Shown here piece after piece: positions 8,445 to 62,481 of a DNA stretch of 64,000 nt (within the stretch, counting starts at the first letter, position 1; the number at the start of each line of letters is the position of its first letter). The stretch is from positions 1 to 64,000 of the IMG/VR virus record IMGVR_UViG_3300025647_000027; one strand, given 5' to 3'. The notes beneath the pieces were generated by a model. It saw only the letters and a list, made by a program, of their open reading frames with translations. It was not told the DNA's origin and searched no databases. The translations under genes and the position numbers were made by a program. The DNA is from a virus.

Positions 8445-8517
8445 GCCCTTATAGCTCAGCTGATAGAGCGTCTTGTTTGTACCAAGGATGTCGTAGGTTT
8501 GAATCCTGCTAAGGGCT
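8445..8517 (+). tRNA. tRNA-Thr (TGT anticodon)
   Basis: Complete cloverleaf: acceptor GCCCTTA/TAAGGGC perfect; D arm GCTC/GAGC; anticodon stem TCTTG/CAAGG with loop TTTGTAC, anticodon TGT at 8478-8480; T arm GTAGG/CCTGC with TTTGAAT. Discriminator T, no encoded CCA. It reads ACA and other ACN codons, which are frequent in this AT-rich phage. Confidence 0.92.
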
Positions 8518-8533
8518 CAATAAAGAGAGGAAA

Positions 8534-38851: not shown

Positions 38852-39568
38852 ATGGTAACAAGAGAAGAAAAAAAGGAAGCAAAAAAGAGATGGTTTAAAG
38901 GTTTCTTTTGGTTAGGAGCATTAGGATTTTTAACATCTTGGTTTATGTTCTTCCCAGCTTGGTGGAGCAGGAAAAGAGGTGATAGGAGCATGTTCTGGGG
39001 ATGGATGGATGATTCAAGACTTGATGATAACACATCACACGGATATTCAATGGACTATTATTCTTTCTTATTGAGATACAATAAGACTAAAGAGGATATC
39101 TGGGTTGCTTACAAATGGCACAAAAGAAATGCTTGTTGGAATTTTAAAGAAAGACTTGGTGGAGGATTAGACACTTCTTTTCCTAATCATGTTGGAAATA
39201 ATAACATCATTCCATTAGAAATTGAAATAGACAACCTTCATACGTATGATGGTACAAAGTTAAGACAAGATGGAGCTTGGGTAATAAAGGCTGGATTAAA
39301 GTATATTCCTCAGGATCCTTCAGAAGACATCTGGCAAGTAATGCAAGGTGACGAAATGTCAAAAAAGACTTCTATAATTGGAGAAGGATTAATATGGTAT
39401 AAAGTGCATGGTTCTGACTTGTTGTATTTCAGATACTCTGAGTGTAAGATTGTTGAATACAAAATATTCGGCATTACAATATGGAAAGGATGGAGAACAA
39501 TAGCTCAATCAACAGGAAAAACTATTGGTATGAACTTTAAACACCAGAAAATTAAACCCTGGAAATAA
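38852..39568 (+). CDS. membrane-associated protein, 238 aa
   Basis: 238-residue protein with a very basic start (EEKKEAKKRWFKG), a hydrophobic anchor (about residues 17-35, FFWLGALGFLTSWFMFFPAWW) and a soluble domain with many Trp residues (YKWHKRNACWNFKERLGGGL; GEGLIWYKVHGSDLLYFRYS; ITIWKGWRTIAQ). Proteins of this plan occur in several phage groups with unknown function. It could be a virion membrane factor or an infected-cell envelope protein. It shares TAATG with the following cargo gene. Confidence 0.55.
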   Translation: MVTREEKKEAKKRWFKGFFWLGALGFLTSWFMFFPAWWSRKRGDRSMFWGWMDDSRLDDNTSHGYSMDYYSFLLRYNKTKEDIWVAYKWHKRNACWNFKERLGGGLDTSFPNHVGNNNIIPLEIEIDNLHTYDGTKLRQDGAWVIKAGLKYIPQDPSEDIWQVMQGDEMSKKTSIIGEGLIWYKVHGSDLLYFRYSECKIVEYKIFGITIWKGWRTIAQSTGKTIGMNFKHQKIKPWK

Positions 39569-43769: not shown

Positions 43770-43770
43770 G

Positions 43771-43962
43771 ATGACTAGAGCGTATTTATTGTTACTAAAT
43801 GTAGTTGACAATGATGATATTTATATTGATCATAGGTTAAACAGATTCGTAATCACTTACAATAATGAAAGAATTATCATTAAATGTGAGGATGTTAAGG
43901 ATTTTATCACTATATTTATGAATGATAAGAATGCGATGTTAACAAAGCTTAACGACAAATAA
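43771..43962 (+). CDS. small unknown protein, 63 aa
   Basis: 63-residue protein (TRAYLLLLNVVDNDDIYIDH; RFVITYNNERIIIKCEDVKD) that looks like a small beta/alpha domain. It lies between two cargo genes with 1-base gaps on both sides. Unrecognised; maybe a chaperone or minor component of the ejectosome. Confidence 0.55.
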   Translation: MTRAYLLLLNVVDNDDIYIDHRLNRFVITYNNERIIIKCEDVKDFITIFMNDKNAMLTKLNDK

Positions 43963-43963
43963 T

Positions 43964-46231
43964 ATGAGTAACAGATTTTCACAAACTACAACAGCAGGAT
44001 TTAAGGGTCTTTCCTTAGATGAGATAATGGCTATTCCATTAGCTAAACAAACTCGTCAGGATGCTTCATTGGCGGCAACTGATGAATTACAAGCGCTAGA
44101 AGCTAAAAGACTTGAGAGTGATGCTCCTGTCGTTGATGCAGAATTAGAAAGAATTAGAAAGGAATCAGAACAGATTTCAAAAGACTTAATGGAAAGAGGT
44201 GTAGATAGAAACTTATCTAATAAACTTCGTAGTCTTAGATCATCTCAAAAGAAATCCTTTGGTGCTTCTGGAGTTGTTGGTCAATCTGAAGCTAACTATA
44301 AAGCGGCTCAGTCTTATATTAATAATCTTGCAACTAAGAAAGAACAACAAGCTGGATGGTCACCTCAACAAGCTAAAATATGGGCTACCTCACAGGTTAG
44401 TAATTTTGGCAGTTCATTTGATGAATTAGGTAATTTTAGACAGTTTCAAGGAGCAGGTATGTCTCAAAAGGTAGAGAGTAATGATTGGATTAATAAAAAT
44501 CTAAAACTTATTGCTTCAGATACTAATCAAGAGATGATGAAATATGCTGGTAATTTAGATCAATTCAATGAAGCATATGCCTCTGGTCTAGTTACAGAGA
44601 AAGACTTCAATAAGATTATGTCTTCCTTAACCATTATGGCAGCTAATGATCCGGATTTACAAGCATCTCTAAAACAACAACAATTCTTTGACCCCAATGC
44701 AGGTGATCCAAAAAATATTGGATCATGGTCTGTAAAATACAGAGAAGATGGTACAAAGACTGACGTATTTACACCTGGTAATGAATTTGGTAGACAATTG
44801 TATGGCGCCGCATTAGGAGTTAAATCAATGGATAAGACATATAAGTTTCATTTTCAAACTGATATTGCTGCTAAAGCTTTATTTGAAGCTGGCCTTGAAG
44901 AAAAAGAAGCTAATGCATTAGTTAGAGCTGCTGATGGTGTATTGAATACTATTACTCCTGATAATATTGATCAGATTAGAGAAAATACAGATTTAGCTTT
45001 AAAAGAACTTGATAGACAAACTGGTGCTTTAGCTGCTAACTGGACTCCAGAGAGAATAAAGGCTAATCCTGATGCGTATGCTTTAGCTCAAAAGAGTCTT
45101 AATGATTCTAAAGTTAAGTATTTTAATCTCCAGAATAGAATTAAGAGTATAGAAAAAGAAACATTTAAAGAGCTTACTCCTGTTGAACAGGAAGGAAAAG
45201 TTTTATATGATAAATTAAGAGAGGGTATTCCAGGTTATGAACAAGCTAAAAATCAAGATGAGGTTATAACATCTTTAACTGATGCTATTAGAAAATTACC
45301 TGGCGGAAAAGAAGTTGTTGGAGAAAGTGGTACTTTAAGTGAGAGCGGAACAGGAAGTGATGAAATGGAGAATTTCTTAACTTCTAAATATCTAGAACTT
45401 AAAGGTGAGAAAGTTAACAAAAATTCAAGAGCAAATAGAAGTATATTTAACTGGGTTGGTAGTGAAGACTTAGCTTATGATGATGGTATTGTAGATAAAA
45501 TGAAAGATGGAGCAAGGGCCCTTAAAGATAAATCTAAAAAATATCTTGAGCAAAACCCTTATTCTGAATCGTATACTGAATTCGGAGCATTAAACTCTGG
45601 TAAGTATTCTAGTAGAATTGGTGCTATTAACCAAAATCTAACAGATAATTTCCAAGGAGCTGGATACTCAGAAGCTTATACTGGTATGTCAATAAACCAA
45701 TATGTTCAAGAGAATTATCCAACTGACCCTTCTTCAACTGAAGCTAAATATAACTTTGAAATAAGAGTTACGGATGGACTAGATGCCATGGGTTACCCAA
45801 TTGAACACTTAGTTATTAAGGACAGAAATGGTTCTGTAATGGAAGTTAAAAGTGTAACAAGAGGTGAGGCTGGTAGAAAAGAACAAAGAGAAACTGGTAT
45901 TGAGTTGATGAAATCTACTGATCCTACTCTACAAAAGAAAGGTAAACAAATGCTTGCTAATGATACTATGATGCCTATGATTAAACAAAATGGTGGACTT
46001 AGAACAGGAGCTGTTGAAGGTCAGTTTACAGGAGAATACAGTAAAGTTGATGTAGATGGAAAGGAACTTCCAATAGTTTGGACTAAAGAAGAAATAGGTG
46101 GTCAAGAAATATGGAGAGTAAACGTTGGAGGATTTAAATCAAGAGAAATACACGGCGAAACAGATATGGCTTCATATCTTGCCGATGAATTATTAGCAGA
46201 AATAGATAAATATGGTACAGGAGACAATTAA
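43964..46231 (+). CDS. ejection (cargo) protein, 755 aa
   Basis: 755-residue, largely helical, Gln/Lys/Asp-rich protein without membrane segment. MSNRFSQTTTAGFKGLSLDE and the SYINNLATKKEQQAGWSPQQ segment fit the family of virion cargo proteins I associate with this position of crAss-like genomes. The C-terminal about 150 residues appear alpha/beta (YNFEIRVTDGLDAMGYPIEH; LVIKDRNGSVMEVKSV). Probably injected with the DNA. It overlaps the next gene by 20 bases. Confidence 0.6.
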   Translation: MSNRFSQTTTAGFKGLSLDEIMAIPLAKQTRQDASLAATDELQALEAKRLESDAPVVDAELERIRKESEQISKDLMERGVDRNLSNKLRSLRSSQKKSFGASGVVGQSEANYKAAQSYINNLATKKEQQAGWSPQQAKIWATSQVSNFGSSFDELGNFRQFQGAGMSQKVESNDWINKNLKLIASDTNQEMMKYAGNLDQFNEAYASGLVTEKDFNKIMSSLTIMAANDPDLQASLKQQQFFDPNAGDPKNIGSWSVKYREDGTKTDVFTPGNEFGRQLYGAALGVKSMDKTYKFHFQTDIAAKALFEAGLEEKEANALVRAADGVLNTITPDNIDQIRENTDLALKELDRQTGALAANWTPERIKANPDAYALAQKSLNDSKVKYFNLQNRIKSIEKETFKELTPVEQEGKVLYDKLREGIPGYEQAKNQDEVITSLTDAIRKLPGGKEVVGESGTLSESGTGSDEMENFLTSKYLELKGEKVNKNSRANRSIFNWVGSEDLAYDDGIVDKMKDGARALKDKSKKYLEQNPYSESYTEFGALNSGKYSSRIGAINQNLTDNFQGAGYSEAYTGMSINQYVQENYPTDPSSTEAKYNFEIRVTDGLDAMGYPIEHLVIKDRNGSVMEVKSVTRGEAGRKEQRETGIELMKSTDPTLQKKGKQMLANDTMMPMIKQNGGLRTGAVEGQFTGEYSKVDVDGKELPIVWTKEEIGGQEIWRVNVGGFKSREIHGETDMASYLADELLAEIDKYGTGDN

Positions 46232-49200
46232 TGATCCTTTAGACTTAAGCATTGTAGAGAACGCATCAACAGATGAGACGTTAATGCAAAAAGATCCTCA
46301 AGAGGATACTAAGCCTAAGGCTAAAGCTAAGTTTGCTAGTGTTGACCCTACTGAAGAAGTTGTAGCTGATGACCCTAATAACGGTAAAGCTAAATTTTCA
46401 GGTGGAGGCCCACAGGTTGTTCAAGATAAAATGTATAAAGGATTAGATATCGAAGATTATACAGACTATCTTGGATCTAACATCTTTATGCCTACTGGTG
46501 GCGTTGACGCTTTAAATAAGCAACGCGCTATGAATCAATCCGGTTGGGAGCAAGCAGGTAATATGCTTGGTCAAGCTGTTGTTGGTGAAATTGTAGGTGG
46601 TACTATTGAAGGTTTAGGTTACATCTTAGATGTTGGTAGCGCACTGGATTATATGACTGGTAATGAAAAGGACTGGGGTAACTTTATGACTGAAGCTGGT
46701 AAAGGATTAAGAACATGGAGTCAAGATGCAATGGCTATACATACTGTTAATCCAGGTAAATTTGATCCGGGAGATTCAGGATGGTGGTTTAGTAACGGTG
46801 TTAGTGTAGCTTCTACATTAAGCATGCTTATCCCTTCTATGGCTGCAACCAAAGCATTAGGCTTCTTGGGTAAGGGAGCAAGTAAGCTTGGTGGTAAATT
46901 CTCTAAGATACTTGATGTTGCAGGAAACATGGGTAAACAAGCTACATGGATGACAGAAGGTATTTCTCAAGCAATAGTATCTAGACATATAGAAAATTCT
47001 ATGGAAGCTAGTGGCACATTCGAAAGTGCAAAAGCTGATTACTTAACAAGAACAAATAAAGAAACAGGATTACCATTTACTGAAGAAGAAGCAACTAAAT
47101 TAGCTTCTGAGGCCGCTGCTTCTAACTACAATAAAGGCTGGGCCATGTTACTTCAAGATATACCCCAGTATTTAGCATTAGGTAAAATCTTCAATCCTCA
47201 CACAGGTAGAATGGAGAATGCTTTATCTAAGGCTTCTCAAAAAGGTAAACAATTAAAATTAAAACCATGGCAACAAAAAGTTGGTAGTGGAATTGGAACA
47301 TTCTTGTCTGAAGGTTTTGAAGAATCTTACCAATATTATATTGCAGAACAAGGTAAAGCACTTGCTGATCTAAATGCTGGATTAATCACAAGAGATAAGT
47401 ATAATGAGATCATGTCTGACGCCATTGGCTCTGACGAGATGATGACTTCTGCATTCTTTGGTGGATTAGGTGGTAATTTATTTCAAATGGCAGGTAAGGG
47501 CTTAAATGAGCTCGGAAAAGGAAAGAAAAGAAGAGAATTCGAAAGCAATTACGAGGAAACTTATAGGTCTACACTTAATGATCGTGCTAAGAATTTCATG
47601 TCTATGCAACAAAGGCTAGCTGATGCTGACAACAACGATAATGTTGAGGCCAGAGAGATGGTATTAGATGAAATGATGTTGATGATGACTACTGATGCAC
47701 TGCACCGTGGTAAATTTGATCAACATATTGAATCTCTTCAAGGTATAGCTAACATGACTAAAGAAGAAGCTAAAGCTTTAGAACAACAAGGTGGTGGTGA
47801 ATTCAATTTAGAATTAGCTAAGAAGAGTATTCCTGAAATAATCAAAAAGTCTGAAGAGATGAGATTAGATTATTTGAAGTTCTCTAACAAATACGAAGGT
47901 AATATTGCGGCTAAAATGGCCCAAAACAATTACAGAACTAAAAGATTTGTTGAAAACTCAAAGAAGATGGATGAAAAAATCCAATCTACTACTTATTCTG
48001 TTCCGAATATTAATGCTATGTCTACAACTCAACTTAATAAAGTTGAAGGAGTAATTAAGTTAAGAGCTTTAGCTGAAATGAATCAAGCATTTAAAGATCA
48101 ACTTAAATCAGGTAAAGTAAGTGAGTTAAGAAAACCACATATTGAAAAAATCATAAAAGAAAATGAGGCTAGAATATCTAAGCTAACTAAACAATATGAT
48201 GCTGAAAATAAAGATGATCCAAGAGATGCTGACAAAAAGAGAGAAGATTCTAGGATAGCGCAAGGTTTCACAAAAGATATCACTGATGAGCTTGTTCAAG
48301 CTAATATGGTTAAGGAGCGTAATAACGCAGAGATAATGCTTAATCAATTAGAGAATGATGCTATTCGTAGTGAAAGTTATAGAAATGGCCTTAAAAAAGA
48401 AGCTTTAAAAGAAAAGGTTAACTCTAAAATAGAGAATGAAGAGCAAGGTGAGGCTATTAAGAAGGAAATTGAAGATGCTCCATTCTTAACTAAGGATGAA
48501 AAAGCTGCTGAACTTGCTACTGTTAATGAGAATATAGAGGAATTAGCTAATGAGGCTGCTGTTGCTCAAGAATATAAGAATGATGAGGCTAGAGAAGCTG
48601 AGAAGTTAGCTGCTGTTAATGAAGCTAAGAAAGATACTAAGACTATAACCAATGCTAACAATGCTAAGGTTAATGATAACGTAGAAGATGAGTTCGCTGA
48701 GGAGCAAACTACTGTCTCTAAGATTACTAAAAGCAAAGAGAAGTCACAAGATAGAGCTATTAATACTAAAGCGTATAAGAACATAAAGGTTCCTATGTAT
48801 GCTAATCTTAATGGTCCTGGTTGGAAAGACTGGGTGTTTAATGGTAAGGACAAAACTGGAATCAAGGATGGCAAACCAGTCATTTTAGATTTTGTAATAG
48901 GTGATCCTGGTGGAAAATATTCGCAATTAGCCCAACAGGCAATTAATATTTACAACAGAGCTAAGGCTAATCCTAAAAACAAGCTTACATCTGAGGAAAA
49001 AGATATTTTATTTAATCATCTTCCTATAAAGATTCAACTTACTGAAGAGATTTGGTCATATATACCTGCATTCTCTCCATCAAATACATTCTTTAAAACT
49101 AATGAATTGCCAAAAAGAGAGGCTATCATTAGACAGATGTTTAAAGGAAACACTAAAACTCAAGTTACTTATCAATTTGGAGGAAACTTACATGTTGAAG

Positions 49201-51905
49201 AAACTGAAGATAACACTGTACCTGAAAACAATATAATGGATTTCCCATTTATTGATGGTAATATGGGTAAAGTAGACTTAATGGTCACTAATGAAAATGG
49301 TACTTTAGTTAAGGCTAGTGATAAAACAGATCATCCTGACTTTGAAGGATTACAAATAGATGTATTAAGAACACAAGATGACAAAGGAAATCCAGTGCCT
49401 TACAAAGGTGGTGTATTTTTAAATGTTCCTAAGGCTAATGGAGATCCATTTCCTTTAAAACTTAACCTAAGACGTCCAACAACAGTAGAAGCTACATTTG
49501 TTGCAGACTTACTTATAGCTGTTATTACCAAGAAGCTTGGTAAAGAGGCTAGATTAAGTGAACATCCTGAGTTATTTAAAAGATTTAAAGAAGATCATCC
49601 TTCTGAATTTGCTGTATTAGGTAAAGATGCTAAAACAATGGATGTTGCTAAATTATTTGTACATATGACAGCTGAAACAGCAGGTAAAGAAACTCATTTA
49701 CACTTAACAGGTGAATGGATTCATTATGGTACAGATATGAAAGCTGCTGTTACTCCTAAAAATGTAGTTGACAATAGAGATGCTCTTATTGGATTTATAC
49801 AAGACTTCAAGAGACGTCAACTTAATCTTAAACAATGGAATGATGCTGTAATAGGTCCTAAGTATAGAGAAATGATGACTAATGGTGTAATGTCTACTGA
49901 CGCTGTTGTTGGTACTGAGAAGCCATTATTTAATGAGAATAAAACTCTTGGCCGTGACAATGGATTACCTCCATTTAAGTTTGATATAGGATTTGCTGTG
50001 CCTGAAGATACTCCCGAAGTTACTGAAGTGAGCCCTAAGGAAGCAACTAAGACTAACAAAGATATTGATTCTAGACAAGCAGCTTCTGATAATGCTGGTG
50101 TTGTTGATGAAAGGGAAAAAGGCTTTGCCGGCGTATTCTTTGATAAAAATAGAAAAAGAATTCCAGTATACGGTAAAAATGCTGACATGGTTCGTAAGCT
50201 AATAAAGGAAAGATATGATGCTGAAAGATTATCTCAACCTGCTCAAAAAGCAGCTACTGTTATTAAGGAAGTTCCTACTCAAGAAATAACAATAGATCCA
50301 TTAAGTAAATCAATAGATGCACAAAAAGCTGAAATAGAAAGAAGAAGACAAGAAGAGTTAAAAGATACAGGGGCTACAGACAACAATCTAACAAATGGAA
50401 GTAAATGGAGAAAAGTCGAAGTCAAAGAAAATGGCAAAATCATCCCATTTAATAACTTTACTGTTAAACTAGATGAAGCTATTAAGCTAGCATCTGTAAT
50501 GGATATAAATAAAGATTTTGGTAAAGATGATAAATTTAAAGGGTATGGGTGGAAAGCATACATTGCATTAGGGAAAGAGTTAGATAAGTTAGGTTATAGT
50601 TTTATAGCTTCTAAAAATTTATCAGATGGTGCTATTAAAACTTGGGATAAGTTAGTTGAAAAAGGATATGCTTATAAAAGAGGAGATAGAAGTTATAAAT
50701 TTCAAAATAAAGAAAATTCTTCTAATAAATACAATAAATATTTTGATACATTAAAAGAAGCTGCTTTTAACCAATTAAATAGTATGTTTGGTAATATACC
50801 GTACAGTTCTATTGAAGATTATAAATCTGTTATTGATGTTGAAAAAGACAATAATAAAATGGCAGAAGGTTTAAAAAGAACCCTTTCTGCTTATGATGCT
50901 AAAGATTATAATATTATAGAGGAATATGGATATAAAAATATAATAGACGATATATCAAATAATGACCTTTCATTTGAAAAAAGTAACAAAAATGATAATC
51001 TAAATTTAGAAGTAGAGTTGATTGAAGATAAAAGATTTGATAAAATCAACGCTAAATATGATGCTGAATTAGCTGCTTTAGAAAATAATGAAAAAGCTAA
51101 TATAGAAAAAAGAAGACAAGAAGAGAGGATAGTACACACAGATATAGATAAAAAGGGGAGAAAACATACTTATTTTACAAAAACTACAGAAAAAGACGGG
51201 TTAACTAAAACAAAGTTTACTTTCAATAGAAGTGATAAAGATTCTACACAAAGAAACACTGCATCTGTACCTACAGATATTGCTTTAGGGGATAAATATG
51301 TAATACCAAAAGAAACAAAAAATGCTGATGGAAGTATGTCTGACCAAATTCCTGAAGACACTATTGTACATTCTGTTTTAGAAATAAGAGAAGGAGATGG
51401 TAAAATAGGAGCTACTGTAATGTTTCAAGGTAAAAATGACCCCACTATAAGGTGGAAAGGAGATATTGTTTTAGAAATCAATGCTGAATATGATGCAGAA
51501 ATAGCTGCTTTAGGTGATACTACTGTTGAAGATTCTTCAACTGATCCTGTTTCTAATGGTATTTGGAAAAAGTTTATTGACAAAGGCGATGTATCTAAAA
51601 TTCAATTAAATAAGATTGCTAAAAAAATTGCTTCAAATGATTTGCTTTCTTCAAGAGAAAACGCTATCTTTACAGGCAAGACTGCTGAGATAAATGAAAT
51701 TCTTGTAGATTTACGCGCTTCAGAAGAAGTTAAAGCTAGAAATAAAATGGCACAAAGAGAATTAAAAGCTAATAAGAACGTAGAAGTAGAGTCTTCTGAA
51801 GAAGCAAAAGATGCTGAGAAGATTGATAAAAAACAAAACACAAAAGAAATAGATCCTAACGTAATTAAAACTGAAGAACAGGGAGACTGGGATTGTATAA
51901 TATAA
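46212..51905 (+). CDS. very large ejection protein with modular C-terminus, 1897 aa
   Basis: 1897-residue cargo protein. The N-terminal part (about 110-230) has the conserved crAss-like pattern of hydrophobic segments (GNMLGQAVVGEIVGGTIEGL; PGDSGWWFSNGVSVASTLSM; LIPSMAATKALGFLG), likely membrane-inserting. Residues about 420-860 are charged, long helices. The C-terminal 560 residues are built from modules separated by recurring linkers (KERYDAERL about 1333, AEIERRRQEEL about 1374, INAKYDAELAALENN about 1613, INAEYDAEIAALGD about 1757). DNA between about 50390 and 51500 looks more A-rich than the rest, so modules may be recent acquisitions. I do not see polymerase motifs here. Confidence 0.6.
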   Translation: MVQETINDPLDLSIVENASTDETLMQKDPQEDTKPKAKAKFASVDPTEEVVADDPNNGKAKFSGGGPQVVQDKMYKGLDIEDYTDYLGSNIFMPTGGVDALNKQRAMNQSGWEQAGNMLGQAVVGEIVGGTIEGLGYILDVGSALDYMTGNEKDWGNFMTEAGKGLRTWSQDAMAIHTVNPGKFDPGDSGWWFSNGVSVASTLSMLIPSMAATKALGFLGKGASKLGGKFSKILDVAGNMGKQATWMTEGISQAIVSRHIENSMEASGTFESAKADYLTRTNKETGLPFTEEEATKLASEAAASNYNKGWAMLLQDIPQYLALGKIFNPHTGRMENALSKASQKGKQLKLKPWQQKVGSGIGTFLSEGFEESYQYYIAEQGKALADLNAGLITRDKYNEIMSDAIGSDEMMTSAFFGGLGGNLFQMAGKGLNELGKGKKRREFESNYEETYRSTLNDRAKNFMSMQQRLADADNNDNVEAREMVLDEMMLMMTTDALHRGKFDQHIESLQGIANMTKEEAKALEQQGGGEFNLELAKKSIPEIIKKSEEMRLDYLKFSNKYEGNIAAKMAQNNYRTKRFVENSKKMDEKIQSTTYSVPNINAMSTTQLNKVEGVIKLRALAEMNQAFKDQLKSGKVSELRKPHIEKIIKENEARISKLTKQYDAENKDDPRDADKKREDSRIAQGFTKDITDELVQANMVKERNNAEIMLNQLENDAIRSESYRNGLKKEALKEKVNSKIENEEQGEAIKKEIEDAPFLTKDEKAAELATVNENIEELANEAAVAQEYKNDEAREAEKLAAVNEAKKDTKTITNANNAKVNDNVEDEFAEEQTTVSKITKSKEKSQDRAINTKAYKNIKVPMYANLNGPGWKDWVFNGKDKTGIKDGKPVILDFVIGDPGGKYSQLAQQAINIYNRAKANPKNKLTSEEKDILFNHLPIKIQLTEEIWSYIPAFSPSNTFFKTNELPKREAIIRQMFKGNTKTQVTYQFGGNLHVEETEDNTVPENNIMDFPFIDGNMGKVDLMVTNENGTLVKASDKTDHPDFEGLQIDVLRTQDDKGNPVPYKGGVFLNVPKANGDPFPLKLNLRRPTTVEATFVADLLIAVITKKLGKEARLSEHPELFKRFKEDHPSEFAVLGKDAKTMDVAKLFVHMTAETAGKETHLHLTGEWIHYGTDMKAAVTPKNVVDNRDALIGFIQDFKRRQLNLKQWNDAVIGPKYREMMTNGVMSTDAVVGTEKPLFNENKTLGRDNGLPPFKFDIGFAVPEDTPEVTEVSPKEATKTNKDIDSRQAASDNAGVVDEREKGFAGVFFDKNRKRIPVYGKNADMVRKLIKERYDAERLSQPAQKAATVIKEVPTQEITIDPLSKSIDAQKAEIERRRQEELKDTGATDNNLTNGSKWRKVEVKENGKIIPFNNFTVKLDEAIKLASVMDINKDFGKDDKFKGYGWKAYIALGKELDKLGYSFIASKNLSDGAIKTWDKLVEKGYAYKRGDRSYKFQNKENSSNKYNKYFDTLKEAAFNQLNSMFGNIPYSSIEDYKSVIDVEKDNNKMAEGLKRTLSAYDAKDYNIIEEYGYKNIIDDISNNDLSFEKSNKNDNLNLEVELIEDKRFDKINAKYDAELAALENNEKANIEKRRQEERIVHTDIDKKGRKHTYFTKTTEKDGLTKTKFTFNRSDKDSTQRNTASVPTDIALGDKYVIPKETKNADGSMSDQIPEDTIVHSVLEIREGDGKIGATVMFQGKNDPTIRWKGDIVLEINAEYDAEIAALGDTTVEDSSTDPVSNGIWKKFIDKGDVSKIQLNKIAKKIASNDLLSSRENAIFTGKTAEINEILVDLRASEEVKARNKMAQRELKANKNVEVESSEEAKDAEKIDKKQNTKEIDPNVIKTEEQGDWDCII

Positions 51906-51930: not shown

Positions 51931-54900
51931 ATGGGAAAGAATTCGAATTGTATAGGCGCCATGAAGTTTGAGGAAAAGCTAGTTACCATTTTGGGAACTC
52001 AAGAACTAGCTAATGCAGAAGCACGAAGAATTGCTTCTGATTCATTCAAACAAGTATTCGGCGATTGGGAAAACAATAAAGACGCTAAATGGACTGACAA
52101 ACAAGGTGCATTAAGGCAAGATGATAATGGTTATCCTAGATTATTTAAATCTGGTAACCAATTCTACTATAAACTTAAGAATGGCAAGAAAGACTTCTTA
52201 AACAAGATTAAGTTTCCAGAAATAGATCCAGACGACGTATTTGAAATCACTAATCAACTTAGATATGAGCTATTCTCAACTAAGGAGGGATTTGATTTTA
52301 ATAACATTGAGAACATAAAAGGTCTCAAGATAGCTGAGTCTATTCAATCTAGCATTGATGCTTATAGAGCTGAAAATGTAGGAGATCCTGATGCACAAAT
52401 GCGTGCAGATCTTATTGAAAAATATAAGGAAGACTTTGTTATTGAGGTAAGAACTCAAATTGAAGACATGGGTCTTACATCAAGTAAGCGTATTAAAGCA
52501 GGTGCTAGAAAGGATCAAATTGTTGACTTAACTGATGAGAATGGAAATCCAGAAGGGGAAATGGCTGAAGAAGACAAATCCACTGGAATGAATTTCGCCG
52601 AAAGCTTTACAAAGAATTCTAAAGACACTGCGTCTGTAAATGTAAAGTTATTATTATCCACTGTATTAGATACTAAAAGAGAGCTTAGGAAAAATCCTGA
52701 CGGAACTCCGTATGTAAATGAGAACGGTAAAAATGAAATGGTTATTTCTACTGTTCCTGGTAGGTTTTTAGGTAAGCCACAATTTGTTGAATTTGATGAC
52801 GTATGGACTACCTTGGAGCCAATGCTAGCTGACTTAGTTAACTTTAACCTAGGAGGAGATGTTCAGGATGTATTTGACTTAATGGTTGAGAAGCTTGAGG
52901 GCTTAAAACTAGTTAAGCCATGGACAGAAGGATTAGTAGACAGACTAAAAGAATTAAATACTTCAGAGAAGATTGGTGAAAGAAATAAAATTACAGAATT
53001 TTTCCAAGCTTTCTCCAAAGCTCAACTTGATTATTATGTAACTGAAGTTAACGGTCGTAATATAAAAGTAATCAATGCTTCTTCTACAAACTCGAGATCT
53101 AGTAAGCTTAAAGCTGAATGGGGCCGTAATTTTAGAAAGAAATTCTTAACCAGCAAGGGTAAGATGAATAAAGCTGTCGATGTTGAACAAATATCTGACA
53201 TGATTACTGAGTCAAAGAAAAAGTTTATAAGCCAAGTAGGCACAAGAGGAACAACAGCCTCTAAAATTAAAAGTATCAGTGAGAATCTTCCTATTCTAAT
53301 GGGAGCAATGAATGCGCTTGGTATCAACGTTAACAACCTTGATATGCGTAACTTTATTCTTCAGGTTAGTGATCCGGAAAAAAGATATGGTGAAGTAAAA
53401 GCTTTATATGAAGGTATGGAAAGAACCATGGCTATCATAAAAGATGATAAAGCTCCATTTGTTGTAGCTGGTGAATTTAAAAATCCATTTGATGATCAAT
53501 TGGTATTAGGTAGATTAGCTACTGCAAGAGGATTGAGCGCTATTCAATTATCTGAGAATACAATTGTTGGTAATGAAGGTAAGACATATTGGACCTATTC
53601 TTCATTAAGTTATTTACATAACAAGCTTAATGCCTGGAAACAGCAAGCTGGTGTAGATGATACTATGGATATACAAGCTTTAGCTAGCTTAACTTATAAC
53701 AAGAATTCTAGATGGTTGAAATACTTATTAGCTGCTGATATTGTTAATGACAGTGAGCGCGAAGCTAAATCATTAGAAAGAATTCAGGATGTTCAAATAG
53801 GCTTGTCGAGCTCTATGAAATCCAAAAATAAGAATGACGGTGTTGATAATACTAAGATAACAATTGCTGATGCTATTAATGATAGTATGGTAAAAATTCT
53901 TGGTAAGAAAGCTTCTGCTCAAAAGTCATTATTTCCTACTATTGTTCCGGCTGATAAATCCCGTAAAATGGATCTTGCAGGTTTCGAAATGTTTGAAACA
54001 GGTATCGTATATACTAATGGTAAAGGAACAGAGGTTGATGATGCTACATCTGATATCTTTATAGATTACTTTGAAGATGAATTCAACAGGATGGCTGAGG
54101 CAGCTGATGAAATAGATAATCTTCCTGATTCAGAAAAGATAGAGCACTATCATACTAAGAGTATGAATGCGCTTCAGTCTCAATTGTTTCCAGAATTCTC
54201 ACCTGCTGAAGCTTCTAAGGAAGTTAAAGCTATCTTATATGATAAGAACCGTCCTAAAAAATCTACAATTTCTGGATTATCTAAAACTCAGAAAGAGGCT
54301 TTAAGACCATTTGTTGTACAAGCTATCAAGGATAGAATGAAAGAAACTCTTCAGGAGTTAAGAAAAAATAAAATTATAGAAGTTGATCCAAAAGAAAAGG
54401 GTGGATTAAAGGCCCTTACTATTGATAAATCTTTAATGGCTTCATATGAGTCTCAAAGTTCACCAGTGCATACAATGGTTGGTGATTATGTTGTTAATGG
54501 ACTTATTTCTACTATTGAATATACCAAGTTATTTTCTGGTGATCCTGCTTATTATAAAAATCAAAGTGATTTGATTAAAAGGATTCCTGCTACCTATACT
54601 GATGGATTGCAATTAAGACTTAGTGAGAATGATCACAAGTATTTTAATCAAGCAACAGTTAATGGTGTTGAGGTTGCTTCTAAGTATATGAAAGAGATAA
54701 GAGATTCTCTTACTGACAAGAAATTAATAGAAGCTTATAAAAATGTAAATACAACTGATGCTCAAGCATGGATAACTCCTCATAGATGGAAGTTTCTTAA
54801 AGAGAGATTAGGCCAATGGGGTGCTCAGCATGAGAAAGTATTCAAGAAAATGATGGATGGTAAAGAGTTAGAGCCTAAGGAACTTAAACTTGCTGCTCAA

Positions 54901-57900
54901 CCATTGAAAGGTGTGTATTTCGAAGTTAATGACGGACGTCCTGTATATTTAAAATATTCACAGGCCGTACTAGTTCCTAGTTTAGTTAAGAACACTCCGA
55001 TGCAAGCTCTATATAATAAGATGACAATAGATCCTGCAACAGGTGAGCCATTTGAAAATAAAAAAGATGAACTTCATGAAGTTATTACTCGTGACGGTGT
55101 AAAAGTTGGAGCAAAAGGAATAACAGATATTCACTCTAAAGACGGTGAGTTATTGGCAGAGTTTGAATTAAATTCAACTCCTTTAATTAATTCAGGTTGG
55201 AAATTACAACAAGATCTGCCTACAAAGCTTATTCATGATACTCTTACTGGATCTCAAATCCAAAAGAACATATTAGCTGGTATTGACTTATCTTCTAAAT
55301 TAGCTAACTATGAACTTAATGGTGAACCTAAAACTGGTAGAGAAATCATGCAAATGATTCATGATACTATTGGATCATTAGTTGGAGAAGGAAGAGAATC
55401 ACTTGTAAATAAGTTCGGAATAGGAGAAGATAATAAGATTACTAATATGACGGCAGTCTATGAAGCTCTTATTGACGAATTTAAATCAAGAGGTGGAGAT
55501 GAAAATATTATCTCAGCCTTAGAAAAAGAGATGTCATTTGATGCTATTCCTCAATTAGCAGGAAGAGTACAAAGTATCTTTATGTCTATCTTTAATAAAG
55601 AACTTATTAAAGTTAAGACTAATGGAGGTTCTTTTATTCAAGTATCACCATTTGGACTTGAGTCTGTTCAGGAAATTGTAAAAGATGACTCCGGTGAAGG
55701 TCCAACTAAAGTTCTTAGATCCGGTATCAAAATAGTATCTGATAACTATGATCCAAAAGGATTAAAGCCACCACGTATTGATAAAAAGACTGGAAAAGTT
55801 TTACCTGGTCAAGCAATGTTACCATATAGTGCAATAAGAAGCGCTATTGATAAGTATAACAAACAATTTAAAAATGAGAATGATCCACAGAGAATAAATC
55901 CATGGAACATGTCAGCTGCTAAGCTTAAGGAAATTTTAGATCCTAGTGCACTACAAATGGTTGCTTATAGAATACCTAACCAAGGAATGTCTTCTAATGA
56001 TCCTTTAGAGATTGTTGGTATACTTCCTCCTGAGTTAGGAGATAGTATTGTTGCTTACGATGCTGTACCTGGTAAGACTGGTAGTGACTTTGATATAGAT
56101 AAGATGTATGTCATGACGCATCACCTTGAAGTGAGAGATGGAAAAATCCAAAAGGTACCAAGTAACATGGACTCCAAAAAAGGTAAGCAAAATATGCTAG
56201 TAGATTTATATACTAGTGTTCTTACTAGTCCTCATACTTACGATCAAATGATGACATCTATTGATGCTGGTTTCTTAAAGAATGATATCGTTGACTTATT
56301 TCCTCCAAAGGAATTAGGAAGCTTACAGTTTATGAGCCCTATGCAACAAATCAAGACTAAGTTTGAATACTTGTCTGGTAAGTTCGGTGTGGCCCAGACT
56401 GCAAACCAGTTAGTGGACCATGCAAGCAACCAAAGTTTAAACATTAGACTTAACGGATACTTAGGTATTGGACATAAAGACTCTAAAGGCAATACAAAGT
56501 TTGATAACATTACAGACACAGATGGTAAGAATAGCATTAGTGATGTACTATCTGCATTCTTAAACGCGTATGTTGATATTGCAAAGGATCCTTATATTTC
56601 TCGTGGTAACCACAATGTTAATACAGCAAGTATTACATTTATGTTGTTACGAGCAGGAGCCCCTGTATCATGGGTTAACAGGTTTGTAGGTCAACCTATT
56701 CTTAAAGATTTAGTTGATGTTATAAACATGTCTGATGGCAAAACTGCAAGAAGATTAACTTTTGGAGACTCAGGTAAGACTGTAACTCCAATTGAGTATA
56801 TTAGATTGCAATACGGTGTTAAGAAAGGTGATGCTACTGAAACTGATGTTGCTGCTTTAAGCCCATCTAAGATGGAGACTGCAATTAAAAAAGAAGGCGC
56901 CCTTACTACTGAAGAGAAAATTGAACAAGGTAAGATCCTGGATGTATTTGAATTCCTTCAAGATCATGCACGAGCTTTCAATGCCAGTGTATCTGCTGCT
57001 AAGGCTGATACCAAAGGTAATGGAGGTGGAGTTCTACCTTTACATATTGCTAAAAATAAAGTGAATGCCGTTCTTAATGCTAAGAAAATATTAGGATATG
57101 CTTCTAAAGGGTTTACTGATGCACATGCTACCTCTACTATGATGGGTCATTACTATCATAACGGAGTGTTATGGGTTAGTAAAGTTTTAGAATCTAGTGA
57201 TTTATTCTTAGCTGGTAAGCAAGAAGTATTACATGCTTTTGACGGCGTATCTGAAGCTTTAGGAAAAGGATTATTAACTGATCCTGAATTAGGAAGAGTG
57301 TTAGAAAATTCTTTTAGATCTTACTCTATGTCTGGATTATCTGTCTTTAAAGATAACAACTCAGATCATGACTTTTTATTTAAAGTTTTACCAGAACAAA
57401 TTTCTGCACTTAAAGAAACTAATGATAATTTCTTAATCCAAGAACTTAGAATAGAGACTTCAGGTGGATACGAATTCTTAGGGATAGATTCTAGAACAGC
57501 TACAAAAAGTTTTAACAATAGAATATATAGAGCGTGGTCTCAACTACTTAATTCTTCTGATCCGGCCGAAAGAAAGCTTGGAGTGGATTTAATAAGATAC
57601 GCGTACTCACAATCTGGATTTAATAATAATTTAAATCAATTCTTTTCACACATCCCACATAATTTCTTTGCAGAACAAGGTATTGCATTTGAGATTGATG
57701 AGATGTTTAGAACTATTGACAATATGGTTGCAGGTGAAGACTTTAAAGATCAAATGCTAAGACATCAATGGGATAATAAAACATTGGGTTCTAAATTAGT
57801 TCCTGAGCTTAGAGCTGATAAAATAAAAGGTTTCGGAGGTTTATTTAGTCTTGGAACCGGATTTATCAGTGACGAAGAAAAATATTCTGTTGCAGTTGAT

Positions 57901-60900
57901 GTAGATTTTATGGGTAATAAAACATTCCCTAAATTTACAAAAGTAATGCTTAATCAAAAAGAAGTATATGATAAAGGTGCTATTCCAAATTATGGTTTAT
58001 TCATATTAAGAGGAGAAGTTAATGGAAATCCTGTATATACTCGTACACATAAGCTTGGACACAAATCTAGTAAAGGTAGTATATTCGAATACAATGAAAA
58101 AGAAGCTCCTACTAAGTCTGTTGTTGAAGGAAATAATGTTCCTACTAAGATTAAGGGTGAGATTAGAGATATAATGAAACAACTTAGATCTGATCCTGGA
58201 TTTATTGAGGAAAAAGATGCAATTACTATTCAAGAAAGTACTCCAAGTGAGAATGTTCGAGAAGTATCTAAGAAAATCATTAGTGATATTGATATAGCTT
58301 CATTTAAGAAAAGAATTAAAGATGGACAATTGCCTAGTGAACATTTTACTAATGACAGTGTATTTGCTGAAATCAAAAATTCTAAGACTGAAGGAAAAGG
58401 TAAAATGCCTCAGGATCACATGTGGATTAAAAATTCAAATGATAGATACGATATGATTGGTCAACAATCTGGTGAAATTATTGTTGCCAATGTTGACCTT
58501 GAAACTGGATTACAATATACAGAGGTAAATATAGATAAAGCAGATAAAGCTCAAGAAGAAAGAATATTACCTAGTGATGACTATCAATTTGAAGAACTTC
58601 AAGTGTTTAATGCTAAGATAGCTCACTTACAAAGTAAAATGAACGTAGATGTTATTATGGATAGCACAGTTCCTACATCAAGAGTATTAGGAGCTTCAGA
58701 TCCTAGAACAATTGCTGCTGGTAAACCTGTTATCTTAATTAATCCTAAGGCTATCTTTAAAACTACTGCTATTCACGAATTTGCGCATATCTTTATAGAT
58801 GCATTTCCTGGTGGCTTAAAGAACAAAAGATTGCAGAAGGCATTACAAGAGCTTAAGAGAACAGGATTGTACGATGAAGTAAAAGAAGGTTATCCTGAGC
58901 TGAGTGATGAGATGTTTGAGAAAGAACTTTTGGCCACTGCAATTGGTAGAGAAGGTGTTGACATTTGGGATAGCAATGAAAAAGCTGGAATGTGGACAGC
59001 ATTTAAAAATTGGTTCTTTGACTTCTTAAGAAGAGCTTTTGGATTAAATCAAAGCGAAGTAACAAGCTTAACAAAAGAGTTATTAAACAATACTGTTAAG
59101 ACTGATTTGCTAGCAAACTTATCGGAACAGGATCAACAAGAGAAGAATTTCGGACAACAAGAAGAAAAAGATGAAGAAGTTGTTGAACTTGAAAACACTT
59201 ATAATCAAATTGTTTCTTCTATTGCTAACTTGAGACAAGCTATTGAGCCTCGTACTAAAAAAGAACTTAAGGTTGAAGAATCTAAAAAGGCTGGATTAGA
59301 GAAAGGTGAGAAAACTAAATATCAAGAAGTTAAAGCTTTAGATGAGAAATTAACTGATGAGATGAGTAGGCTTAATGAAACAGCTAACTCAAGAGCAATG
59401 CTTAGATATGTTGCATTTTCACAGAAGAGTGTTAATGAATACAAATCACTTGTTAGTAGGTTAACTGAAAGAGGTAAATTAACTCCTGAGGACATCAAGA
59501 ATATTAAATTCTTTACATCTGTATTCACTATGATTCCTGATGTTAAGCAATTGATGTTAGAGCAATATGAAAAAGGATATCTTAAAGATAACAATGGTCA
59601 AAAGAAAAAGAGAATGGCCGTACTTGATAAGATTATAGCTGATTATGATACTTTAAATCAAGAGATGTTAGGTGTTTCAAGAAGAATATACGCGCAAACA
59701 ATGGTAGAGCATTCTAATGAGCACGTAACTGCTTGGAGAAAGAAATTTGAGAAGCAATATGCTGATCTTGAGTCTAGAAATGCTACTCCTGATGAGAACA
59801 TGTATGTCTGGGTTAACGCTAAGATGACAGCAAATAAAGATAAGATTGAAAGTGAAGCGCTTAAGTTCTATGAGAACCAGGCTAAGAAATCTTTATCAGA
59901 TATTCATGCATCCACCGGGTGGTTGGTTTCTGAAAAGAACATAGCTAATGCTGAAATTCAAACAGTTTCTAGAATGATAGATGCTGCTGATTTTGAAGTT
60001 GACAGATGGGTCCAAGCTCAAGCAAAAGAAGTAGAAGATTCTTATAAAGAGTTCTCTAAAGACTATGCTAGCTCACTCGGAACAGAAGGAAGATATAAGA
60101 AATTTGTTGATCAAACTGATGAAGGATCTTATTTGATATCAGAATACAAAGCAGATTTCTTAGCTAAATACTATGAGGCTAATTCGTGGATGAATAAAAA
60201 TGTATACGAGGAAAAGTTTGCAGGAATAGAAGTTACGAAAGATGGTAAATATACATATAATGGAGAAACTAAAGAACTTCTTTTACCTCGTAATGGATTA
60301 AAAGTCGAAGGTACTCATGTGTTTTATACCGAAGCTGGAATAACCCACTCAATGACACTTCAAGAGGCTATTGGAAAGAGTGAGCGTGCTTACTGGGTTG
60401 AAGAGAATACTGATACTCAAAAGACATCATATGGATTGGATCTTAAGCCTAAGAAATCAATATGGGCTAATCCTGCTTATGAAGAATTATCTGTTAAAGA
60501 CAGGGAGCACTTGAAATCTATGAGAAAAATGATATTAGACGCGCATGTCTTAACTGAAGGTAAGCAAACTCTAATTGAAAAAGCAGGTGTTGCTGATTTT
60601 TATAGATTACCAGGCGTAACAAGATCTAGTAAGGCTAGAGCTCTTGCAGGTGATTTAAAATCTCTTGTTAGTGACAGTGTAACTGACATGTTCAAGAAGA
60701 AAGAAGATGAATTTGAATTAGAAGCTGAAGGAACTAAAGCTGCTGACAAAGGAAAGAATTCTATTCGCAGAATGGCTGACCTTACTAATAAGCAGAAGTA
60801 TGATGTTCCTATTCCGTTCAGAGCTAAGCTTAGCAAAGCAGATCAAAGTCTAGATATTCACACTATCTTACTTATGAATTTGAAAGAAGCTAAGAACTAT

Positions 60901-62481
60901 GAGCAAAAGAAAAAGCTTGAAGCTCAAGTGCATGTTATGATTGATGTTATGAGTAATAGACTTATTCCTAACCATTCAGGATTACAGAAGCTTGCAGTTA
61001 TGCACGGGTTCAGTAGAGATAAAGAGATTCAAATGCATTTACCTAAGGAGCAATTGCCTGAGGATGTTAAGACTCTTATTTCTATAATGGAAAGTAGAAT
61101 CTATGGAATAAAAGAGAAAGATGCAGGGTCCGCTGCTGGCGTAAATATGCAAAAGGCCACAACAACTCTCTTAAAATACGCAGGTAGTGTAGCTCTTATT
61201 GGTAACTTCGTTAACTCTTTTGTTAATGCAACTACTGGTACAGTTAACAACTTAATAGAAGCATGGGGTGGTGAAACATATAATCTTACTAACTGGAAGA
61301 ATGCTGGTGTTAAATACTGGAAAGATTCTAAAGGATTAGTAGATGATATTGGATCTAATGTAAACTCTTCAAGAACTAACATGATGTTGGATGTATTCAA
61401 CGTATTAGGTTCAAGAGAAAGTTTAAATAACAATTTCGAAGATAATAGTAGATTAAAATCTATGATGAACACTAGTAAGCTACGTCCAATAGCACAAGGC
61501 GGTGAGCATATGATGCAATCTAAAGTGATGTACGCAGTCTTGGATAATATTAAAGTTCTAAACAAGAAGGGGGAATATCTAGATAAAAATGGTAACGTGA
61601 CAAAAGATGTCGCCAAGGCTGCCACTTTAGATGAAGTTATGTATTTTGAAAGAGATAAGAAAGGAGAATCAGTAGCTAAGCTTCCTGCTTGGGTTGCCGC
61701 AACTACTTTTTCACCTCAACCGGGTAAGCAGGATGAAATACTTGTTGACGCGAGAGGCCTAATTAAGAAAAAAATCATAGACTTACATGGTAACTATGAT
61801 AATGATCTTAAGAATAAAGCTCAACGTGAATGGTGGGGTAAACTATTATTCTTCTTGAAAAAATGGATGGAGTCAACTACTCTTCGTAGATTTAGAGGCT
61901 ATGCAACAGCGCTTAAGAAATCTGAAGAATTGAGAGATGTAGATAAATATTACTCTGAAGATATGAAACAATATCAAGAGGGATATTATATTACAGCTGC
62001 AAGGTTTATAAAGAATTCTTTATTACCTGCTGCAAAAGAACTTAAGTTCGAAGCTATAACAGCTGATTACAAGAATATGTCTAAACATGAGAAAGCTAAT
62101 ATGAGAAGATTAGTTGCTGAATTTGGTATGATGACATTGACGCTATTGGCTTATGCAGCCATGGGAGGATTTGACGATGAGCCAGATGATGAGACTTTAA
62201 TGGCCAGATACTTCTTAAGAAGAGAGTTATCAGAACTAACGTTCTATTTAAATCCTGCTGAAACTATTAAGTTGATGAAGAATCCAACAGCCAGTGTATC
62301 TGTTATAGAGAGATACACTAAAGTTCTTGGACAGTTCATGTCACCAACTGAGCGTTATGAGCAAGGTAGAAATGAAGGAAGGCTTAAGTTATGGGTGAAG
62401 ACTAAGAAAGCTTTACCTTATTGGGCCCAAACTGAAAAAGATTATAAAGCATCACTGCGTTTCTTGCAGATTATGGATTAA
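51931..62481 (+). CDS. giant virion RNA polymerase with zinc-protease domain, 3516 aa
   Basis: 3516-residue protein. The RNA polymerase assignment rests on YDAVPGKTGSDFDIDKMYVM: aspartates D1386, D1388 and D1390 form a DxDxD metal site like DFDGD of cellular beta' and phage two-barrel polymerases. RIPNQGMSSNDPLEIVGILP precedes it as in the beta' double-psi barrel. An upstream stretch with LKYSQAVLVPSLVKNTPMQA and GVKVGAKG (K1058) may be the beta-type barrel. Around 2275-2300 lies an HExxH zincin, TTAIHEFAHIFIDAFPGG (H2282, E2283, H2286). Charged helices follow, then hydrophobic segments near 3080-3110 and 3390-3410 and a crAss-like C-terminal tail. Like the N4 virion polymerase it would be ejected into the host to start transcription. 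It stands as one chain rather than separate polymerase proteins. Confidence 0.75.
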   Translation: MGKNSNCIGAMKFEEKLVTILGTQELANAEARRIASDSFKQVFGDWENNKDAKWTDKQGALRQDDNGYPRLFKSGNQFYYKLKNGKKDFLNKIKFPEIDPDDVFEITNQLRYELFSTKEGFDFNNIENIKGLKIAESIQSSIDAYRAENVGDPDAQMRADLIEKYKEDFVIEVRTQIEDMGLTSSKRIKAGARKDQIVDLTDENGNPEGEMAEEDKSTGMNFAESFTKNSKDTASVNVKLLLSTVLDTKRELRKNPDGTPYVNENGKNEMVISTVPGRFLGKPQFVEFDDVWTTLEPMLADLVNFNLGGDVQDVFDLMVEKLEGLKLVKPWTEGLVDRLKELNTSEKIGERNKITEFFQAFSKAQLDYYVTEVNGRNIKVINASSTNSRSSKLKAEWGRNFRKKFLTSKGKMNKAVDVEQISDMITESKKKFISQVGTRGTTASKIKSISENLPILMGAMNALGINVNNLDMRNFILQVSDPEKRYGEVKALYEGMERTMAIIKDDKAPFVVAGEFKNPFDDQLVLGRLATARGLSAIQLSENTIVGNEGKTYWTYSSLSYLHNKLNAWKQQAGVDDTMDIQALASLTYNKNSRWLKYLLAADIVNDSEREAKSLERIQDVQIGLSSSMKSKNKNDGVDNTKITIADAINDSMVKILGKKASAQKSLFPTIVPADKSRKMDLAGFEMFETGIVYTNGKGTEVDDATSDIFIDYFEDEFNRMAEAADEIDNLPDSEKIEHYHTKSMNALQSQLFPEFSPAEASKEVKAILYDKNRPKKSTISGLSKTQKEALRPFVVQAIKDRMKETLQELRKNKIIEVDPKEKGGLKALTIDKSLMASYESQSSPVHTMVGDYVVNGLISTIEYTKLFSGDPAYYKNQSDLIKRIPATYTDGLQLRLSENDHKYFNQATVNGVEVASKYMKEIRDSLTDKKLIEAYKNVNTTDAQAWITPHRWKFLKERLGQWGAQHEKVFKKMMDGKELEPKELKLAAQPLKGVYFEVNDGRPVYLKYSQAVLVPSLVKNTPMQALYNKMTIDPATGEPFENKKDELHEVITRDGVKVGAKGITDIHSKDGELLAEFELNSTPLINSGWKLQQDLPTKLIHDTLTGSQIQKNILAGIDLSSKLANYELNGEPKTGREIMQMIHDTIGSLVGEGRESLVNKFGIGEDNKITNMTAVYEALIDEFKSRGGDENIISALEKEMSFDAIPQLAGRVQSIFMSIFNKELIKVKTNGGSFIQVSPFGLESVQEIVKDDSGEGPTKVLRSGIKIVSDNYDPKGLKPPRIDKKTGKVLPGQAMLPYSAIRSAIDKYNKQFKNENDPQRINPWNMSAAKLKEILDPSALQMVAYRIPNQGMSSNDPLEIVGILPPELGDSIVAYDAVPGKTGSDFDIDKMYVMTHHLEVRDGKIQKVPSNMDSKKGKQNMLVDLYTSVLTSPHTYDQMMTSIDAGFLKNDIVDLFPPKELGSLQFMSPMQQIKTKFEYLSGKFGVAQTANQLVDHASNQSLNIRLNGYLGIGHKDSKGNTKFDNITDTDGKNSISDVLSAFLNAYVDIAKDPYISRGNHNVNTASITFMLLRAGAPVSWVNRFVGQPILKDLVDVINMSDGKTARRLTFGDSGKTVTPIEYIRLQYGVKKGDATETDVAALSPSKMETAIKKEGALTTEEKIEQGKILDVFEFLQDHARAFNASVSAAKADTKGNGGGVLPLHIAKNKVNAVLNAKKILGYASKGFTDAHATSTMMGHYYHNGVLWVSKVLESSDLFLAGKQEVLHAFDGVSEALGKGLLTDPELGRVLENSFRSYSMSGLSVFKDNNSDHDFLFKVLPEQISALKETNDNFLIQELRIETSGGYEFLGIDSRTATKSFNNRIYRAWSQLLNSSDPAERKLGVDLIRYAYSQSGFNNNLNQFFSHIPHNFFAEQGIAFEIDEMFRTIDNMVAGEDFKDQMLRHQWDNKTLGSKLVPELRADKIKGFGGLFSLGTGFISDEEKYSVAVDVDFMGNKTFPKFTKVMLNQKEVYDKGAIPNYGLFILRGEVNGNPVYTRTHKLGHKSSKGSIFEYNEKEAPTKSVVEGNNVPTKIKGEIRDIMKQLRSDPGFIEEKDAITIQESTPSENVREVSKKIISDIDIASFKKRIKDGQLPSEHFTNDSVFAEIKNSKTEGKGKMPQDHMWIKNSNDRYDMIGQQSGEIIVANVDLETGLQYTEVNIDKADKAQEERILPSDDYQFEELQVFNAKIAHLQSKMNVDVIMDSTVPTSRVLGASDPRTIAAGKPVILINPKAIFKTTAIHEFAHIFIDAFPGGLKNKRLQKALQELKRTGLYDEVKEGYPELSDEMFEKELLATAIGREGVDIWDSNEKAGMWTAFKNWFFDFLRRAFGLNQSEVTSLTKELLNNTVKTDLLANLSEQDQQEKNFGQQEEKDEEVVELENTYNQIVSSIANLRQAIEPRTKKELKVEESKKAGLEKGEKTKYQEVKALDEKLTDEMSRLNETANSRAMLRYVAFSQKSVNEYKSLVSRLTERGKLTPEDIKNIKFFTSVFTMIPDVKQLMLEQYEKGYLKDNNGQKKKRMAVLDKIIADYDTLNQEMLGVSRRIYAQTMVEHSNEHVTAWRKKFEKQYADLESRNATPDENMYVWVNAKMTANKDKIESEALKFYENQAKKSLSDIHASTGWLVSEKNIANAEIQTVSRMIDAADFEVDRWVQAQAKEVEDSYKEFSKDYASSLGTEGRYKKFVDQTDEGSYLISEYKADFLAKYYEANSWMNKNVYEEKFAGIEVTKDGKYTYNGETKELLLPRNGLKVEGTHVFYTEAGITHSMTLQEAIGKSERAYWVEENTDTQKTSYGLDLKPKKSIWANPAYEELSVKDREHLKSMRKMILDAHVLTEGKQTLIEKAGVADFYRLPGVTRSSKARALAGDLKSLVSDSVTDMFKKKEDEFELEAEGTKAADKGKNSIRRMADLTNKQKYDVPIPFRAKLSKADQSLDIHTILLMNLKEAKNYEQKKKLEAQVHVMIDVMSNRLIPNHSGLQKLAVMHGFSRDKEIQMHLPKEQLPEDVKTLISIMESRIYGIKEKDAGSAAGVNMQKATTTLLKYAGSVALIGNFVNSFVNATTGTVNNLIEAWGGETYNLTNWKNAGVKYWKDSKGLVDDIGSNVNSSRTNMMLDVFNVLGSRESLNNNFEDNSRLKSMMNTSKLRPIAQGGEHMMQSKVMYAVLDNIKVLNKKGEYLDKNGNVTKDVAKAATLDEVMYFERDKKGESVAKLPAWVAATTFSPQPGKQDEILVDARGLIKKKIIDLHGNYDNDLKNKAQREWWGKLLFFLKKWMESTTLRRFRGYATALKKSEELRDVDKYYSEDMKQYQEGYYITAARFIKNSLLPAAKELKFEAITADYKNMSKHEKANMRRLVAEFGMMTLTLLAYAAMGGFDDEPDDETLMARYFLRRELSELTFYLNPAETIKLMKNPTASVSVIERYTKVLGQFMSPTERYEQGRNEGRLKLWVKTKKALPYWAQTEKDYKASLRFLQIMD

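Follow-up and report, generated by a model that had tools for sequence, protein, structure and literature searches.

The 3516-aa open reading frame at 51931..62481 (+) of the window (the whole 64,000-base stretch of DNA analysed in this work, part of a 69,935-base virus record) was shown by homology to be an in-frame fusion of a virion RNA polymerase (gp66-like) to a gp65-like protein, the latter carrying a putative zincin protease. There is a somewhat better than even chance that this fused chain belongs to a nearly cysteine-free ejected string, in which disulfide-type joints between consecutive chains can be replaced by gene fusion.

In-frame fusion of gp66- and gp65-like proteins

The frame had no internal stop, and the positions that an earlier note had given for it and for its two motifs (DFDID at aa 1386-1390 and HEFAH at aa 2282-2286) were all correct. 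Its RNA polymerase part (aa 12-1970; 51964..57840, +) matched PDB 6VR4, which is phi14:2 gp66, with an E-value of 2e-224 in phmmer, and was also aligned to phi14:2 by tblastn. From aa ~2270 onward the chain matched phi14:2 gp65 (tblastn E 7e-106; fold E 2e-55, TM 0.82), annotated as an RNA polymerase associated protein and encoded directly next to phi14:2 gp66. The joint between both parts (aa about 2126-2215; 58306..58575, +) lies at the place where, in split relatives, the polymerase terminates in ...CK and gp65 begins with MSCK. The helical C-terminal part (aa 2440-3516; 59248..62478, +) was assigned to the gp65/gp49 family (AF2 pTM 0.78; BFVD match to phi14:2 gp65, TM 0.82), and the gene immediately upstream (46212..51905, +) encodes a gp67-like partner of 1897 aa, identified by BLAST to the gp67 of relatives and to p-crAss gp45. 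Scans of the full 3516-aa chain with Pfam and PHROGs gave no significant match.

The earlier note had described a zinc protease within the polymerase chain: a single chain with a zincin domain does exist, but the zincin is part of the next protein, gp65, which is fused here. The note had also reported hydrophobic segments near the end of the chain, and these were reduced to one weak stretch (aa 3394-3412; 62110..62166, +; Kyte-Doolittle 1.48). Most relatives had a similar stretch at the same place (1.4-1.9), L005 did not rise above 1.3, and a membrane helix is not established. A single tRNA gene, tRNA-Thr(TGT), was located at 8445-8518 (+) of the window.

The polymerase was classified as a crAss-like two-barrel virion RNA polymerase on the homology to phi14:2 gp66 together with the DxDxD motif, the catalytic DFDID at 56086..56100 (+). 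By composition, 0.05 HExxH and about 1.1 DxDxD motifs would be expected by chance in such a chain, so that DxDxD alone is weak evidence and the homology to 6VR4 decides. The motif and the residues around it were invariant in the alignment with phi14:2, and the aspartates, whose loss in homologues the earlier note had named as evidence against a polymerase, were conserved. The same note had treated Ile in place of Gly as a deviation, a peculiarity rejected by the family-wide presence of Ile: the distinct GSDFDxDK contexts across the fetched loci had Ile in 32 of 34 cases, Val in 2 and Gly in none. The motif was TGSDFDID in phi14:2, GSDFDVD in crAss001 gp50, DYDID in L023 and Fpv3, and DFDID in DAC15 and crAss002. 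Two double-psi beta-barrels in one chain have been described for 6VR4 (PMC7886860, PMC10770324), and by this homology the window chain would also contain both. Transcription activity or presence in the virion is known for the relatives from phi14:2 and crAss001 (PMC10136315, PMC10172136), phi14:2 gp66 being the enzyme that transcribes early genes (PMC10136315). N4 vRNAP was not among the PDB sequence matches of the polymerase part, which did not classify as a T7-like single-subunit RNAP.

The gp66- and gp65-like parts were separate adjacent genes in 23 other contigs, and the presence of two genes here in most relatives is what would be expected if the fusion were an assembly or sequencing artefact with a lost stop codon. 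This explanation has a negligible probability and was rejected: in the sister contigs L005 and L006 (78% identity) the frame is fused in the same way, the joint is under purifying selection, and it contains its own, distinct linker. For the window/L005 pair, pN/pS was 0.30 in the 61-codon joint (vs. 0.16-0.28 in the surrounding folded domains) and 0.77 in the 75 residues just before it. Being open in the sisters, and with a pN/pS of 0.30, the fusion joint is translated but loosely constrained. Another phage, represented by L055/L004, had a polymerase 93% identical and a C-terminal part 98.6% identical to those of the window, in an open frame that runs off both ends of a contig ending in a 117-base repeat.

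L055 also harboured a SLOG/cpYpsA-like insert at the joint between RNAP and zincin (L055:17153-17677) and a NADAR-like insert inside the polymerase (L055:13901-14305), both with Pfam scores below the curated cut-off. The polymerase gene was split by an inserted gene in bajarodcaudo virus 1 (L095:13995-22178) and in cr116_1 (L092:10095-20960); the gene inserted in the bajarodcaudo polymerase is annotated as an endonuclease, and the first polymerase part stops within the DFD of the catalytic motif.

The zincin domain and its possible roles

The zincin domain (aa about 2223-2345; 58597..58965, +) was recognized by homology to phi14:2 gp65 and to the C1 domain of N4 vRNAP, and modelled by AF2 with a pLDDT of about 90-95. 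Its HEFAH (58774..58788, +) corresponded to HExxH in all 26 aligned relatives, and Glu2332 (58924..58926, +), the likely third zinc ligand, was invariant in 20 relatives and conserved in more than 90% of the 26. H2282, E2283, H2286 and E2332 were all invariant in 20 diverse relatives, in which only 27 of about 1,350 columns were invariant; HExxH followed by a downstream Glu is the gluzincin-type arrangement. The order of elements in the AF2 model (helix, strands, HExxH helix, Glu helix) fits the minimal zincin fold. A Foldseek search of this model against PDB gave no significant match, and Pfam gave none above cut-off for the zincin pieces, with only a weak SprT-like match in phi14:2 gp65. A profile built from it matched C1 of N4-like vRNAPs (best E 5e-7); in hhalign this comparison reached 90% (E 1.4e-6), against 0.4% or less in 20 column-shuffled controls, and 13% when the HExxH region was masked; much of the N4 C1 signal thus comes from the motif.

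In all the arrangements found, the zincin adjoined the 67-66 or the 66-65 joint; outside the gp65 clade, some of its placements were based on the position of HExxH and on weak profile scores (for example, 1e-4 in p-crAssphage and 0.4 in crAss001). It is probably an active metallopeptidase module beside a joint. In four contigs (L074, L075, L079 and L078) the zincin lay on the N-terminal side of the polymerase, within one chain, and HExxH was missing from the gp65-like protein encoded downstream. The motif was absent from the three block proteins of DAC15 and L067.

Two roles were considered for this domain. Acting on its own chain, the zincin could cleave in or close to the joint, whether prior to packaging, inside the head or following ejection, and free the polymerase from the delivery parts, as suggested by the earlier note and as proposed for polyvalent phage proteins, N4 vRNAP included, in the passages of Iyer et al. 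2017 on these proteins (PMC5512222). The invariant Zn ligands and catalytic Glu, and the proximity to a joint in every arrangement, agree with this published proposal, and a cut in the fused window chain would recreate the split state of the relatives. Yet most relatives keep a zincin although their chains are already separate, with nothing to cut at this joint, and the block of DAC15 and L067 manages without HExxH. N4 vRNAP is packaged unprocessed according to the same passages of PMC5512222, and the purified protein showed no degradation (PMC12633501). No conserved cut site was found in the joint, which is poorly conserved, and joints tolerate any inserted module; self-processing is for these reasons considered rather improbable. 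Slightly less doubtful, though still unlikely, is a role as a cargo enzyme that, once injected, cleaves host defence or transcription factors, which is also among the proposals in those passages of PMC5512222. Such a delivered effector would be consistent with a zincin that moves between chains and is sometimes missing, and with the two sub-threshold inserts (SLOG-like and NADAR-like) that the sister phage L055 has in the same string. Against it, the gp65 clade shows a sequence conservation atypical of arms-race effectors, and no target is known.

Cysteines at the facing ends of consecutive chains

The fused chain had a sole cysteine, Cys7 (codon at 51949..51951, +), at its N-terminus on the side of the 67-66 joint, and the gp67-like protein also had only one, Cys1895 of 1897 residues (codon at 51894..51896, +), third from its C-terminus. 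Both thus sit at facing ends of neighbouring chains. Cysteines were counted in the 23 contigs with separate genes, scoring those within 12 residues of a chain end. The ends that meet at a joint had a cysteine in 86 of 87 cases (gp67 C-terminus, 18 of 19; gp66 N-terminus, 22 of 22; gp66 C-terminus, 23 of 23; gp65 N-terminus, 23 of 23), and the outer ends in 0 of 39 (gp67 N-terminus, 0 of 16; gp65 C-terminus, 0 of 23), with only 4 interior cysteines in total over the 65 giant proteins. The one exception was the gp67 of L072, without a C-terminal cysteine. Eleven GenBank genomes added after the rule was formulated, and scored with their annotated starts, had a cysteine at 25 of the 27 meeting ends and at none of the 21 outer ends (p 1e-11), although these statistics, like those of the first set, count related phages and not independent events. 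The two exceptions in the second set were the annotated starts of crAss002 gp33 and bajarodcaudo gp65, with no cysteine within 12 residues. For crAss002 gp33 (L086:13088-25825) the true start probably lies downstream of the annotated one; an MSC start in the same frame is present at residue 33.

In this second set the rule also held where the fusion was at the other joint (Fpv3, cr4_1, cr55_1, cr109_1, cr60_1 and cr10_1) and where the gp67-like gene is on the opposite strand (DAC15, cr116_1 and bajarodcaudo), as it had done before in crAss001. Since it holds at either joint and across opposite strands, it is a feature of the proteins and not of the gene junctions. A DNA-level junction repeat (TGTAAA on both sides in phi14:2) was considered as the source of the terminal cysteines and rejected: the codons after the cysteine vary, and the rule persists with separated genes on opposite strands. 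Fused joints lacked their cysteines in the well-resolved cases. Several interior cysteines were present in some families (8 in p-crAssphage gp44, 7 in cr10_1, and also in cr60_1), so that only part of the order strictly lacks cysteines in the chain interiors. No cysteine was present in three more proteins encoded beside the block in the window (39568-46231; 890, 509 and 755 aa), unlike the 1356-aa structural protein, which had 12.

The thioredoxin family PF00085 gave no match in 12 records, and thioredoxin-like genes are annotated in p-crAssphage and bajarodcaudo; these data lend no support either way to disulfide joints. The terminal-cysteine pattern was not mentioned in the crAss literature searched, nor in the passages on polyvalent proteins of Iyer et al. 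2017 (PMC5512222), and as far as this literature goes the rule is unreported, though an earlier mention is possible, as it also is for the gp65 zincin.

Proposed delivery string and comparison with known systems

The cysteine pattern suggests that consecutive chains are probably joined by disulfides, an interpretation drawn from sequence. We consider it about as probable as its contrary that Crassvirales in general deliver one modular, nearly cysteine-free transcription and ejection string, whose chains would be stapled from C- to N-terminus by disulfides, released by reduction and replaceable by fusion, the joints serving also as insertion sites for modules. In the window, gp67, gp66 and gp65 would make up a single collinear string of about 5,400 residues with almost no cysteine, carried in the virion, passing the tail partly unfolded and refolding inside the cell, where gp66 would transcribe the early genes; virion carriage, ejection and early transcription are established or proposed for phi14:2 and crAss001, and extended here to the window. 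Among crAss-like phages the string was divided into two or three chains, with two joints at which a break could occur. As the simplest mechanism, a putative disulfide between the C-terminus of one chain and the N-terminus of the next would hold them head to tail, and the joined string, of 4,700-6,600 residues, would be threaded out in order and separate in the reducing cytoplasm. Only the 67-66 joint of the window would be of the cysteine type, the 66-65 joint being a peptide bond, with gene fusion presumably replacing the cysteine joint; at this fused joint, either the polymerase would work while fused or the zincin would cut. The existence of two alternative ways of maintaining chain continuity (cysteine joints and fusion) suggests that the string travels as one piece.

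Published data on the virions are compatible with these proposals. Those of crAss001 contain gp47, gp49 and gp50, proteins that can pass the tail only if partly unfolded, and the tail itself has disulfide bonds (PMC10172136); the absence of cysteine in N4 vRNAP has been tied to its transit across tail and periplasm (PMC3715699, PMC3915230). Terminal cysteines might instead bind zinc, act as a packaging signal or mediate contacts between copies of the same protein, and two cysteines paired between copies can indeed also bind metal. A packaging or self-contact signal would not, however, be limited to the ends facing a neighbour, nor would it disappear at fused joints, and such other roles are judged fairly unlikely. 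Disulfide joining of neighbouring chains would bear on how a phage passes very large enzymes, in the right order, through a tail channel less than 50 angstrom wide. From the terminal-cysteine rule one can predict the neighbours and the order of the chains, and the way they separate. It may also aid annotation, as for the likely in-frame start of crAss002 gp33 and the order of the partners in crAss001, whose genes are on opposite strands.

The closest known system, gp66 (6VR4) and gp65 of the Cellulophaga phage phi14:2 (Steigviridae), is collinear with the window, with a DFDID RNAP followed by HExxH and a helical part, but consists of two genes with cysteine ends (...CK and MSCK), whereas the window has one chain without those cysteines. 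The earlier note had contrasted the window with the crAss-like polymerases described so far; this contrast did not hold, for in p-crAssphage (Carjivirus communis, BK010471) gp44 is already annotated as "putative RNAP catalytic subunit fused to unknown RNAP subunit" and gp45 as "putative RNAP associated protein fused to zincin protease". The single-chain polymerase and protease of the window is a variant of this documented arrangement, differing in that the zincin of p-crAssphage is at the C-terminal end of gp45 (gp67-like) and not between the RNAP and the gp49/gp65-like part.

Outside the crAss-like phages, N4 vRNAP (Schitoviridae; PDB 9pnr, 11gp) is an injected, cysteine-free chain of about 3,500 aa with the same layout as the window's fused chain (RNAP, HExxH-containing C1 and helical C2) and a C1 zincin related in sequence, but its RNAP is of the T7 type and not two-barrel, and it has an extra N-terminal domain. 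It works while fused, its CTD lowering the activity (PMC12633501). Homology of the gp65 helical part to N4 C2 found no support (hhalign 0.1%; N4 structures not among the PDB fold matches listed by Foldseek). In Thermus phage P23-45, gp96 is likewise a giant injected chain that combines a two-barrel RNAP and a metallopeptidase (PMC10770324), but there the fusion is to a tail tape measure containing membrane segments, and the motif is DFDGD. The polyvalent proteins of phages and conjugative elements, as presented in the relevant passages of Iyer et al. 2017 (PMC5512222), a text in which crAss is not mentioned, are likewise multidomain delivered chains with a zincin; the window combines unrelated enzymatic domains (RNAP and zincin) in one chain that would also be delivered. 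That related zincins adjoin two unrelated polymerases, those of N4 and crAss, suggests one ejection-linked module recruited twice. A zincin was also present in the C-terminal region of an N4-like vRNAP of Enterobacter phage SonariX (L053, a jumbo-size record of 248,734 bases), which is annotated as a hypothetical protein.
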